A stretch of DNA of 64,000 nucleotides from an uncultured Anaeroplasma sp. (lineage in GTDB: Bacteria; Bacillota_I; Bacilli_A; Acholeplasmatales; Anaeroplasmataceae): the NCBI GenBank assembly GCA_947592005.1, contig CANQDJ010000004.1:1-64000 (forward strand), in the 5' to 3' direction. The notes under the pieces were generated by a model that ran no database searches, was not told the origin of the DNA, and worked only from the letters and a program-made list of their open reading frames with translations. This document shows, piece by piece, positions 26,983 through 56,246 of the stretch. Made by a program: the position numbers and the translations under genes. Every line of letters starts with the position of its first letter. The first letter of the stretch is position 1.

Positions 26983-27567
26983 ATGCGTATCGGCATTTTA
27001 GCAAGATTATTCGAAAAAAAATTGTATGTTCCCCAAGTTTATTTGGATTATTTTAAAAAATTGGGATTTCAAGTAGATATAGTAACGCTAGATTCTTCTT
27101 TGGACTCCTTCGATTTATTTGTTTTAACCGGAGGATATGACTTAGATCCGAAATATTACAATCAAATAAATACACATAGTCAATTTATCGAAGAATATAA
27201 TGATACGTTGGATTTTAAAATATTAGATTATGCTACTTCTTTTGGCGTTTATGTTTTGGGAATTTGTCGAGGTATGCAAAGTATCAACGTTTACTTCGGA
27301 GGTTCTTTAAACCAAAATATACTCCATCATCAAAATAACAATCATTTTATTAAAATAAAAGAAAAATATCTTTTAACCAATTCTTTTCATCATCAAAGCA
27401 TTCAAAAACTCGGTAAGAATCTAACCATTCTTGCCAAAAGTTTGGATAATGAAATCGAAATGATTCAATCCAAAAATAAAAAAATAATTGGAGTTCAATT
27501 TCATCCCGAACGAATGAATACTCCAATCATTGATTCTATTATCTTTTCTTTATTTAACGAAGTTTAA
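26983..27567 (+). CDS. Class I glutamine amidotransferase, gamma-glutamyl-gamma-aminobutyrate hydrolase-like (peptidase C26)
   Basis: TGGYDLDPKYY, VLGICRGMQSINVYFGGSLNQ, GVQFHPER. Confidence 0.88.
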   Translation: MRIGILARLFEKKLYVPQVYLDYFKKLGFQVDIVTLDSSLDSFDLFVLTGGYDLDPKYYNQINTHSQFIEEYNDTLDFKILDYATSFGVYVLGICRGMQSINVYFGGSLNQNILHHQNNNHFIKIKEKYLLTNSFHHQSIQKLGKNLTILAKSLDNEIEMIQSKNKKIIGVQFHPERMNTPIIDSIIFSLFNEV

Positions 27568-27880
27568 AACTATCACATTGTGTTTCGCTGCGATATTTTG
27601 CATCTTCGTTACCGATTCGAATTTCTTTTGCTTCACAATAATTATCTTTATTGAAAGCACAATAATTGGCACTGCAACTAATAGAAACCGAATCTTCCGT
27701 CGTCATTTCTCTGGCGATTTCTTTCATTAATAATTGACTATCATGCGGATTTTTAAAAGATTGACAAAACGTACCAATCTTACTTTTGGCAAATAATCCC
27801 TCTACATCGATATTTCTCTTATTACAGCGATTACAATCGTTATATCCGCAAGTTTTCGCATTGCATTCTATTTTCGTCAT
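27554..27880 (-). CDS. DUF1540-type Cys-rich protein (two Cys modules)
   Basis: MTKIECNAKTCGYNDCNRCNKRNI and ISCSANYCAFNKDNYCEAKEIRIGNEDAKYRSETQCDSFKL. Confidence 0.8.
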   Translation of the reverse strand: MTKIECNAKTCGYNDCNRCNKRNIDVEGLFAKSKIGTFCQSFKNPHDSQLLMKEIAREMTTEDSVSISCSANYCAFNKDNYCEAKEIRIGNEDAKYRSETQCDSFKLR

Positions 27881-27936
27881 ACAAATCTTCCTTTCAATAG
27901 TTAGTATGAACAAAAATAGTAAAATCATACATAAAA

Positions 27937-28263
27937 TTATTTCAAATTTGTGGTTTTCCCAATACCTATGACATCATCTACTGGCATCGAAAAGGCAATT
28001 CCTTGTGCTTCGGAACTAAAACCAGCCGTTTTATAAATCGCATGAAGAATAGTATCTTTAATTGTCACTGGAACCAAAATCATAACGATTTCTTTTTCTG
28101 GGTGAATACTTATATTAAACAACTTTTCCGTTTCTTCTTTCGCAGTACCTCTTGCGTTAATCACCGTTCCGCCCTTAGCCCCACAATCTCTGGCGGCAGA
28201 CATAACAATTTCCGAATATCCGGAATTGACAACACATAAAATTACTTCAAATTTTTCACTCAT
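27937..28263 (-). CDS. P-II family-like regulatory protein (1)
   Basis: GAKGGTVINARGT and GFSSEAQGIAFSMPVDDVIGI (PII B-loop/C-terminal-strand-like). Confidence 0.8.
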   Translation of the reverse strand: MSEKFEVILCVVNSGYSEIVMSAARDCGAKGGTVINARGTAKEETEKLFNISIHPEKEIVMILVPVTIKDTILHAIYKTAGFSSEAQGIAFSMPVDDVIGIGKTTNLK

Positions 28264-28264
28264 A

Positions 28265-28654
28265 TTATTCTACCCCCTTATTTGCTAAAAATTGATAAAC
28301 CATAACCCCGATTACCGAAGAAATCGGAATAGTAAATGCGACTCCCTTACCATGCTTGGTTTTAAAATATTTATCTTCGTAAGCCGCTTGAATTTCTTTA
28401 ATTCGATCTTCGGATACAATACTGAATAAAACTGCTTTCCCTTCATCGGTCAATCCCAAATAATGAAGCATATCGGAAGTAGCCGTTCCCTTTCCATAAA
28501 CAATTGTTTGTAAATTGACATCGAATCCTTCCAAAACGTCTTGATAAAACGACGCTTTGGAGCGTTCCACTATAGTAACAAGAATTTTTAATTTTTTAGG
28601 AGCCGTAAGCCCTTCTTCAAATTTTACCGGCTTTTTTTCTTTTGTTTTTGGCAT
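28265..28654 (-). CDS. P-II family-like regulatory protein (2)
   Basis: KTKHGKGVAFTIPISSVIGV matches the C-terminal pattern of the neighbouring PII-like protein; 2 bp from it. Confidence 0.72.
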   Translation of the reverse strand: MPKTKEKKPVKFEEGLTAPKKLKILVTIVERSKASFYQDVLEGFDVNLQTIVYGKGTATSDMLHYLGLTDEGKAVLFSIVSEDRIKEIQAAYEDKYFKTKHGKGVAFTIPISSVIGVMVYQFLANKGVE

Positions 28655-28664
28655 TGTTTATCAC

Positions 28665-30194
28665 CTACTTCATAAAATGGATAATCTGTTCATCTTCCGC
28701 ATCGATAATCTTTTTCATTCTATTTCTTTCCAATACCCTCTTTGCCATAACCGAACGGAAACCCAATAACTGAATCGTAATCAATGGCGTCATTGCCACC
28801 ATCGCAACGATTCCGAACGCATCACGCAAAATACTTCCCTCTCCTTGTAAAACCATACAAGTCCCTATCGCAAACGGCAAAATAAAACTGGAAGTCAATG
28901 GTCCGGAGGCAACACCACCGGAATCAAAAGCGATAGCGGTATAAATTTTTGGAATAAAGAAAGACAATCCCAAAGAAATTAAATAACCGGGAATAATATA
29001 GAAAAGAATAGAAAAATCAAAAATAATTCGAATCATAGAAAGACAAATCGAAATACCGACACCGATAGATAACGCAATAAGCATAGACCGCTTAGAAACT
29101 CCACCGGTCGTAATTTCTTCTACTTGTTTGGTTAAAACATGAACCGCCGGTTCGGCTAAAACAACAACCATACCCAATACAAATCCGAATATGGCTATCC
29201 ATACCGGATTGTTTGATGCAAGTTCTTGCCCCATTTTATATCCAATCGGCATAAAACCGATATTGACCGCCGTCAAAAAAATAACCAAGCCCAAAAACGT
29301 ATAAGCAATACCTATTGCTATTTGAATCAACTTTTTCTTAGGCAAACGAATATATATAAATTGAATAATCAAAAAGAATGCCACAATTAGACAAAGAGCC
29401 AAAATAACTTCCAAACTAATCGAACCAAATTTTTTCAATATTTCGATAAACAAATGATCCGCAATTTCATAATTCGAAACAGTATAAGGAATATCTCCGT
29501 GAATAGACATTCCCAAAATAAGAATCGCCAATATCGGTCCTACAGAACATAAGGCAATCAATCCAAAACTGTTTTCACTTGCCCCTCGACCACCTATAGT
29601 TGCCGCAATCCCAACACCCAAAGCCATTATAAAAGGTACCGTAATAGGCCCTGTCGTAACACCACCGGAATCAAAAGCCAAAGCCAAGAAATCTCCATTA
29701 CCATTTAAAATAACAATACTGGTTACAGCAAATAACGCAAAATAGAAAAACATCAATAAAAACGATAAATCTTTTTTAAAAATAATCTTTACTACTGCCA
29801 AAACCAAAAATATACCGACACCCAAACCAATAAATAAAATCAATATCGTCGGATTAATTACCGCACTTACCTGAGAAGCCAAAACAGATAAATCGGGTTC
29901 GGCAATCGTAATCAACACTCCCATTACAAAACAAACCAAAATGACAATTTTAATTTTATTGGTTTTCATCAAAGAAGAGCCCACTTGTTCTCCCATCGGT
30001 TGCATAGCCATATCCGCACCTAAATTAAATAGTCCAATCCCCAAAATCAAAAAAACGGCAGATACCATAAATACCAAAATCTCTCTCAAAGTCAAATCGA
30101 TTAATGGAGTAAAATTCAAAATAAAAACAATGAACGTTACCGGTAATACGGAAACCAATGCTTCTTTAATTTTATGCCATAACTGTCTTTTCAT
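28665..30194 (-). CDS. DUF1538 family multi-TM protein with internal duplication
   Basis: Repeated motifs: MGVLITIAEPDLSVLASQV / LGMVVVLAEPAVHVLTKQV and LAFDSGGVTTGPITVPFIMALGVG / IAFDSGGVASGPLTSSFILPFAIG. Confidence 0.85.
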   Translation of the reverse strand: MKRQLWHKIKEALVSVLPVTFIVFILNFTPLIDLTLREILVFMVSAVFLILGIGLFNLGADMAMQPMGEQVGSSLMKTNKIKIVILVCFVMGVLITIAEPDLSVLASQVSAVINPTILILFIGLGVGIFLVLAVVKIIFKKDLSFLLMFFYFALFAVTSIVILNGNGDFLALAFDSGGVTTGPITVPFIMALGVGIAATIGGRGASENSFGLIALCSVGPILAILILGMSIHGDIPYTVSNYEIADHLFIEILKKFGSISLEVILALCLIVAFFLIIQFIYIRLPKKKLIQIAIGIAYTFLGLVIFLTAVNIGFMPIGYKMGQELASNNPVWIAIFGFVLGMVVVLAEPAVHVLTKQVEEITTGGVSKRSMLIALSIGVGISICLSMIRIIFDFSILFYIIPGYLISLGLSFFIPKIYTAIAFDSGGVASGPLTSSFILPFAIGTCMVLQGEGSILRDAFGIVAMVAMTPLITIQLLGFRSVMAKRVLERNRMKKIIDAEDEQIIHFMK

Positions 30195-30300
30195 AACTAT
30201 ACACCCAATCTCTTTATTTAGAATTATACAAAATTCCCCAATTTTACTCAAGAGAAAATAAAGAATTATATAAGAAATTTACAATAAAGAATAAAAGACC

Positions 30301-31053
30301 TTATTCGGTCTTTTGTTCATTATTCTTCTTTTCCAAAAATTGAACGATTTTCCCATTGAAAACAATACAAAATATCGCCATCAATAACGAAAAACAAGCC
30401 AATACAATCGCTACAATATACGAACCGGAAATCAAAGAATTTCCCATAAATACCGTAACAATCGTCATCGGAATTCTTGCGATAAAATTAATTAAAATAA
30501 AATTTTTCATTCGAACTTTTGTAAAAGGGGCTACGAATGCCACAATATCCTTCGGTAAAGCAGGAATCAAAAGATAACCAAACATAAGCACTTCACACCG
30601 CAAAGGATTTTTTAAAAAGCGAGATTCTTTTATTTTATCCGGATTCATAAATAACGCAAAAAAACGATATCCCAAAAACTTAACCAAATAATATACACAA
30701 ATCGCTCCAATGGTTTGGCCTATAATACATAAAATAATTGCGATAGGTGGATTAAATAAAATTCCGCTTAACATCACAATCGGTCCCGAAGGAATAACCG
30801 CCAAAATACATTGTAACGCTTGAGCAAGTAAAATAATAATCCAAACCCAACCACCATAAGACCGAATTTTCTGCACGATTTCATCTCGATAAATTTCATC
30901 GGATTGAATACGGGAAATAATCGGATACAAGCGGATTGTCGAATATATACAAAAAGCCAAAAATGCCAATAATAACAATAATTGTAAAATAATGCGAATT
31001 ACTTTATATCGTTTTCGCTTTTTTTCACTTAGTTCTTCTTCCATTTTATCCAC
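30301..31053 (-). CDS. TVP38/TMEM64 (DedA-like) family membrane protein
   Basis: ILAVIPSGPIVMLSGILFNPPIAIILCIIGQTIGAICVYYLVKFLG. Confidence 0.88.
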   Translation of the reverse strand: MDKMEEELSEKKRKRYKVIRIILQLLLLLAFLAFCIYSTIRLYPIISRIQSDEIYRDEIVQKIRSYGGWVWIIILLAQALQCILAVIPSGPIVMLSGILFNPPIAIILCIIGQTIGAICVYYLVKFLGYRFFALFMNPDKIKESRFLKNPLRCEVLMFGYLLIPALPKDIVAFVAPFTKVRMKNFILINFIARIPMTIVTVFMGNSLISGSYIVAIVLACFSLLMAIFCIVFNGKIVQFLEKKNNEQKTE

Positions 31054-56064: not shown

Positions 56065-56075
56065 CGTTTTCTCTT

Positions 56076-56236
56076 ATATCTTAGCACCTCTACATAAAGT
56101 AGGAGTGATATGAGTATTTCCCATATCCCCATAGTCTTGTATATGCCTATACAACTATTCGGCAATGGTTACCTTTCTTATGTTTCACAGAACGCCTTCT
56201 CCGCATAATACTCTTTTGCATTGCTACCTCTAATGA
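56076..56236 (-). ncRNA. Lysine riboswitch (L-box) aptamer
   Basis: Minus AGAGGUAGCAAUGCAAAAGAGUAUUAUGCGGAGAAGGCGUUCUGUGAAACAUAAGAAAGGUAACCAUUGCCGAAUA aligns by eye with the B. subtilis lysC L-box core (AGAGGUGC..AAGAGUA..GGAGAAAG..UUCUGUGAA..UGAAAGG..GCCGAAG). Confidence 0.92.
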
Positions 56237-56246
56237 ATTTTCAATT

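Follow-up and report, generated by a model that had tools for sequence, protein, structure and literature searches.

An operon of a gut bacterium that probably encodes an ion antiporter gated by sensor proteins, with a role in salt and pH balance

Introduction

UmpAB is the sole characterised member of the DUF1538 family in the open-access literature that we searched. UmpA and UmpB of Halomonas zhaodongensis, two homologous 7-TM subunits with the DUF1538 domain, form a heterodimeric Na+(Li+,K+)/H+ antiporter, which rescues E. coli KNabc and is active in E. coli from a cloned fragment that ends after umpB; the paper makes no mention of PII or P-II (PMC5484666). In one machine-learning study, DUF1538 was found among growth-pH-related genes together with the cation transporters Mrp, Trk, and Kdp (PMC13255231).

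The main known role of PII proteins is in the sensing of nitrogen and carbon. NifI1 and NifI2 are paired PII proteins of nitrogenase, and CPII is a carboxysome-associated binder of nucleotides and bicarbonate; PstA is, to our knowledge, not fixed beside a transporter gene. Of the PII-like proteins acting on transporters, SbtB inserts its T-loop into the cleft of the bicarbonate transporter SbtA (PMC8352866). Both PII-controlled transporters and a DUF1538 antiporter are thus already known. No description of their combination was found in the open-access literature searched; the linkage may be known informally, since database records place both names side by side.

Here we analyze such a combination in a window of 64,000 nucleotides (contig CANQDJ010000004.1, positions 1 to 64,000) from an uncultured Anaeroplasma sp., the draft genome of which comprises 1.49 Mb in 76 contigs.

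Results

The window carries three minus-strand genes, which encode, in the order of transcription, a DUF1538 (UmpAB-like) fused two-half membrane protein (28665..30194; 509 aa from the ATG, with 2 × 7 predicted TM segments in antiparallel halves), a divergent PII-like protein with an extra C-terminal helix, PII-B (28265..28654, 129 aa), and PII-A (27937..28263, 108 aa), a PII-like protein of the lineage present in every module type. The intergenic gaps are 10 bp between DUF1538 and PII-B and 1 bp between PII-B and PII-A, in agreement with the sequence-only reading, which had placed three same-strand genes 1-10 bp apart. Ribosome-binding-like sequences are located 5′ of PII-B (AGGTG) and of PII-A (AAGGGGG). 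Ahead of the operon, the best-scoring sigma-70-like promoter match (TTGAGT-17-TATAAT, 10/12; 30223..30251, minus strand) is a weak candidate, as the number of sites in the promoter scan was no higher than in shuffled sequences. Further upstream, a terminator-like hairpin (30293..30314, minus strand) sets off the gene of a VTT-domain membrane protein (30301-31053, minus strand). Since both the hairpin and the promoter-like site precede DUF1538, the three genes likely form one transcription unit. A same-strand gene for a protein with two DUF1540 repeats (27554-27928, minus strand) lies 8 bp 3′ of PII-A and is possibly part of the same transcript. No Rfam elements were detected in the operon region; elsewhere in the window, a lysine riboswitch (RF00168, 69.5 bits) was found at 56074-56240 on the minus strand. 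The nearest named relative in our genome scan is an Anaeroplasmataceae MAG (L062), with a DUF1538 protein 75% identical to that of the window.

Both small proteins end in a similar pattern (PII-A, GIAFSMPVDDVIG; PII-B, GVAFTIPISSVIG), which had already been noticed in the sequence-only reading. The resemblance is real: comparison of the PII-A and PII-B ortholog profiles with hhalign gave a probability of 98.3% and an E value of 2.4e-14 over 101 columns, so that by profile-profile comparison the two families are homologous and the shared ending goes beyond chance. PII-A matches the Pfam P-II family with 30.5 bits (E 4.8e-7; cut-off 25), and PII-B with 21.2 bits (E 3.7e-4), below the cut-off; P-II matches were obtained for 53/53 PII-A orthologs and, at E up to 0.1, for 35/54 PII-B orthologs. 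Solved PII structures are also found with the PII-A profile, the best match being 9p1x at E 1.5e-6. AlphaFold2 models were made for PII-B and DUF1538, the fold of PII-A being assigned by homology. The PII-B model (pLDDT 79.6) has a beta-alpha-beta-beta-alpha-beta ferredoxin-like fold with a C-terminal helix, and its top Foldseek matches are CPII, PstA, SbtB, and PII (E 2e-6 to 1e-4, probability 1.00). Pfam, hhalign, AlphaFold2, and Foldseek therefore agree that both small proteins belong to the PII superfamily, as had been proposed. The c-di-AMP receptor family of Pfam gave no match in PII-A or PII-B, with P-II alone reported.

One may ask whether these are classical GlnB/GlnK proteins that sense ATP and 2-oxoglutarate in nitrogen signalling, given that PII-A exceeds the Pfam P-II cut-off and that public records call such genes ‘P-II family nitrogen regulator’. 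In an alignment to 9p1x and an archaeal GlnB, however, the GDG of the ATP site is replaced by GQG in PII-A and by GKG in the PII-B consensus, Lys90 is replaced by Ile, and neither the TG nor the C-loop Arg positions are retained, which bears out the earlier remark that the canonical B-loop (TGxxGDGK) and T-loop are absent. Moreover, the P-II scores amount to 21-30 bits here vs. 81-89 bits for classical PII proteins of relatives, and no amt/amtB gene adjoining the operon was found by gene neighbourhood and Pfam analysis. Because the canonical ATP-site residues are missing, PII-A and PII-B are classed from their alignments as PII-like proteins rather than GlnB/GlnK; on these residues and the P-II scores, the classical identity was rejected, and we consider nitrogen signalling of that kind very improbable. 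In the window genome there is no P-II match beyond PII-A and PII-B. In relatives, classical P-II domains were observed within ~600-aa open frames (G072:C24:7369-7683 and G342:C36:26579-26893), which are possibly Amt-GlnK fusions.

The membrane protein contains two Pfam PF07556 matches (E 8.7e-71 and 1.3e-59), and both motif pairs from which an internal duplication had been read are present (MGVLITIAEPDLSVLASQV and LGMVVVLAEPAVHVLTKQV; LAFDSGGVTTGPITVPFI and IAFDSGGVASGPLTSSFI), with core residues that are invariant or nearly so among 41 relatives. The duplication was thereby confirmed. In the N-terminal half, the AEP motif (A98-E99-P100; 29895..29903, minus strand) has E99 and P100 invariant (alignments A1 and A4) and coincides with a helix break at residues 98-99 of the model, which makes it a candidate ion/proton site. 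The FDSGG motif of this half (residues 174-178; 29661..29675, minus strand), accompanied by TTGP, is invariant or nearly so and lies in a broken helix, with the break modelled at 181-185. Their counterparts in the C-terminal half are A347-E348-P349 (29148..29156, minus strand), with E348 and P349 invariant, and FDSGG at residues 423-427 (28914..28928, minus strand), again invariant or nearly so. The AlphaFold2 model (pLDDT 84.9, pTM 0.86) is all-helical, with helices broken at AEP and FDSGG. Summed K+R loop charges of fused DUF1538 proteins are 8.0 on the N-terminal side vs. 2.4 on the other for the N-half, and 2.6 vs. 11.2 for the C-half; split pairs are biased alike (6.7/1.9 and 2.8/8.5). 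From this opposite bias, the two halves are predicted to be antiparallel, with both termini of the fused protein cytoplasmic, which supports the pseudo-two-fold transporter proposed earlier and sharpens it. The fused N-half best fits the first genes, and the C-half the second genes, of split pairs (29/29 each). DUF1538 had no match to solved proteins by sequence up to E 10, and its model had none among solved folds with Foldseek at E 0.001, with TM-scores that did not exceed 0.2. Kinship to any solved transporter was accordingly rejected, and no fold family is assigned.

In a genome scan of Clostridia, Bacilli, Bacteroidales, and Fibrobacter MAGs, DUF1538 was followed by PII-like genes in 80/80 named loci; 78 of them have two PII-like genes, and in the other two the contig ends too soon. 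With even-spaced sampling, DUF1538 was detected in 57/295 Bacillota genomes, 101/300 genomes from the phylum of a Clostridiales relative, and 8/198 Bacteroidota-side genomes. The samples of these three phyla together with plasmids, by which Pseudomonadota are represented, yielded a set of 127 modules from 124 regions. A PII-like gene is placed directly 3′ of DUF1538 on the same strand in 124 of the 127 modules, which rules out chance linkage. The three exceptions are a contig end (L257), a locus at a contig edge in which PII lies upstream of DUF1538 (L213), and one without PII within ~3 kb (L232). Among the 295 Bacillota genomes, with PII-A counted as present at E below 1e-20, 56 contain both families and 234 contain neither; 4 have PII-A without DUF1538, and 1 has DUF1538 without PII-A, in the form of a broken fragment. 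The neighbourhood foreseen in the sequence-only reading is thus conserved, and the linkage of DUF1538 with PII is near-obligate; with a PII-like fold found as well, that reading stands on both points. Third-party conserved neighbours were not observed, the best other family reaching at most 21/200 loci and recurrent ones being mostly spurious frames.

The modules differ in architecture. Fused DUF1538 is accompanied by two PII genes in 43 modules, by a PII-PII tandem protein in 39, and by three PII domains in 2, while split DUF1538 comes with a tandem protein in 14, one PII in 12, and two PII in 9, and a single or partial DUF1538 with PII in 5; these counts are uncorrected for the shared ancestry of the loci. 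Alphaproteobacterial plasmids have the split form with one PII, and the cultivated Peptoclostridium acidaminophilum DSM 3953 has the fused form with a PII-PII protein. None of the 84 fused proteins with adjacent PII has a single PII domain, whereas split pairs have one PII in 12 cases and two in 23. As a new observation, fused DUF1538 is therefore always associated with at least two PII domains where PII is adjacent; one fused protein (L232) has no adjoining PII. The three-domain cases are a 380-aa triple-PII protein beside a 626-aa DUF1538 (L299) and, in L278, a run of three consecutive PII genes. Three of the five single or partial cases (L226, L234, and L243) are a lone single-domain DUF1538 with one PII gene; as this is the sole DUF1538 match in G552, a lone domain may function as a dual-topology homodimer.

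Single PII genes and the second copies of two-PII modules are always of the PII-A type. In contrast, the first copies of most fused-DUF1538 loci constitute one well-supported clade (100/99), within which PII-B has diverged furthest. The DUF1538 protein of the window ends in an acidic tail, EDEQIIHF (residues 500-507; 28674..28697, minus strand), with I505 and F507 invariant (alignment A4). The tail, with the pattern [D/E]DEQIIxF and variants including DDAQIIYF, was found in 77/80 named loci. It is present in 44/50 modules with a B-type first PII vs. 1/72 with an A-type one, and absent from 6 and 71, respectively (Fisher 2e-25, likewise uncorrected for shared ancestry). The divergent first copy thus tracks with the acidic tail, a further new observation. 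As the C-terminus of DUF1538 is predicted to be cytoplasmic, we propose that the tail is probably a docking peptide for PII-B. Bacteroidota fused proteins (L295-L298, 478-490 aa) are without the tail, and the PII-B clade does not include the first PII copies of these loci, which suggests an independent fusion of DUF1538 in this group.

The same data bear on the question of whether the PII pair gates the adjoining transporter at all. It could instead be co-transcribed as a reporter of the same condition and act on another enzyme or transporter. In four genomes of one family (L313-L316), a PII-B/PII-A pair occurs without any DUF1538; a gene for an RNA pseudouridine synthase is adjacent or close by, and a different partner of the pair is therefore conceivable. 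In L317 (4192-6291), a divergent PII-like pair is followed by genes for an ABC ATPase and a UPF0014 (FetB-like) permease of a FetAB-type transporter. Yet the pairs that lack DUF1538 are rare and could be relics, and the linkage in 124 of 127 modules with a fixed gene order, as well as the association of the tail with PII-B, favours direct contact. We therefore judge action on another target to be improbable. The L317 locus itself suggests a further PII-transporter pairing.

As to the transported substrate, which the sequence-only reading had called unknown, this needs correction: the published activity of UmpAB (PMC5484666) means that the family is not wholly without a substrate. The window protein is homologous to UmpAB and scores 157.5 and 142.2 bits on the NCBIfam UmpA and UmpB equivalogs, without reaching the cut-offs of 490 and 500; split proteobacterial pairs obtain merely 78-111 bits. 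The N-half fits UmpB best and the C-half UmpA, contrary to the gene order, at scores too low to be trusted. Being so far below the cut-offs, the protein could have a substrate other than that of UmpAB. In that case the system would be PII-regulated, but would move another solute in gut anaerobes, e.g., ammonium, bicarbonate, or an organic ion, with the UmpAB activity a specialised or side activity. Known PII-transporter pairs do handle ammonium and bicarbonate, and the absence of a matching solved transporter in Foldseek means that the fold leaves the substrate open. On the other hand, the functional data available for DUF1538 concern cation/proton antiport alone, the grouping with Mrp, Trk, and Kdp points to cations as well, and a distinct PII-like family is paired with PF00999 exchangers. 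Taken together, we regard a different solute as unlikely and monovalent cation/proton antiport as the preferred reading.

This second PII-like family, newly observed here in Bacillota, adjoins PF00999 (CPA) Na+/H+ exchanger genes in 14/20 loci (L321-L340; see also, e.g., L320 1521-3128); the member that was tested does not itself match any Pfam family. c-di-AMP riboswitches are regulators of potassium and osmotic genes. One of them lies directly 5′ of a clostridial DUF1538 operon (L223 4471-4598), and, as a single case in ~77 related regions, it is only a hint; a second, in L196, is downstream of the DUF1538 operon and is to be assigned to the gene that follows. A diadenylate cyclase is encoded in the window genome.

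Discussion

Our results indicate that the three genes probably encode a PII-regulated monovalent cation/proton antiporter, with PII-B on the tail and a heteromeric complex of PII-A and PII-B. DUF1538 would be the fused form of the two-gene UmpAB, its antiparallel halves arranged like inverted repeats, and would exchange Na+ or K+ for H+ by way of the AEP and FDSGG elements that occur in each half. PII-A and PII-B may serve as soluble sensors on the cytoplasmic face of the antiporter, such that the binding of a small ligand alters transport. Adenine nucleotides (AMP/ADP/ATP or c-di-AMP) are the most likely ligand, because the nearest folds (CPII, SbtB, and PstA) bind them. PII-A would retain the ancestral sensor role in this lineage, and PII-B would be a diverged duplicate, probably docked on the acidic EDEQIIHF tail, so that in its native state the transporter could carry a heteromeric complex of both PII proteins. 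Since UmpAB is active in E. coli without PII, the PII proteins should modulate transport, most simply by inhibition, and should not be required for it.

A bolder proposal, which we put forward only tentatively, is that the PII-A/PII-B heteromer, anchored by PII-B on the DUF1538 tail, switches the exchange of cations and protons when it receives an adenine-nucleotide signal, for instance c-di-AMP, that this constitutes an undescribed and widespread module, and that the pairing of PII with antiporters arose at least twice, with DUF1538 and with CPA exchangers.

If the antiporter reading is true, PII signalling would be extended to salt and pH balance, and the only characterised DUF1538 antiporter family would gain a regulator. 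The pairing occurs in about one third of the sampled Clostridia-group genomes and about one fifth of the sampled Bacillota, and the paired PII proteins are directly testable by a known assay. Moreover, the modules make up a natural series, from a lone DUF1538 domain with one PII through split DUF1538 with one and with two to fused DUF1538 with two, in which the dependence of the number of sensors on the transporter architecture can be studied.

Among described systems, PstA/DarA (c-di-AMP receptors, PMC4316997) resemble the proteins of this operon in their PII-like fold, non-canonical ligand site, and Gram-positive distribution. CPII of Thiomonas intermedia, the best Foldseek match of PII-B, has the same PII-like fold (~20-24% identity over the match), but comes without DUF1538. 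The NifI1/NifI2 genes are likewise two diverged, adjacent PII genes acting as a pair; their target, however, is nitrogenase and not a transporter. GlnK-AmtB shares the placement of a PII gene beside a transporter gene, and differs in its unrelated transporter and in the canonical ATP/2-oxoglutarate residues, which are missing here. SbtA-SbtB likewise combines, in one operon, a PII-like gene with a Na+-dependent transporter built of inverted repeats (PMC8352866), and the PII-B model resembles SbtB; yet the transporter family is unrelated, and one PII gene gives a homotrimer, whereas two divergent PII proteins are found here. By analogy, the insertion of SbtB into SbtA and the cytoplasmic-side blocking of AmtB by GlnK may serve as mechanistic models for the gating of DUF1538. 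UmpAB has the same DUF1538 domains in two homologous 7-TM units of a two-unit transporter; in contrast, the protein of the window joins both units in one chain, scores far below the equivalog cut-offs, and is coupled to two PII-like proteins.
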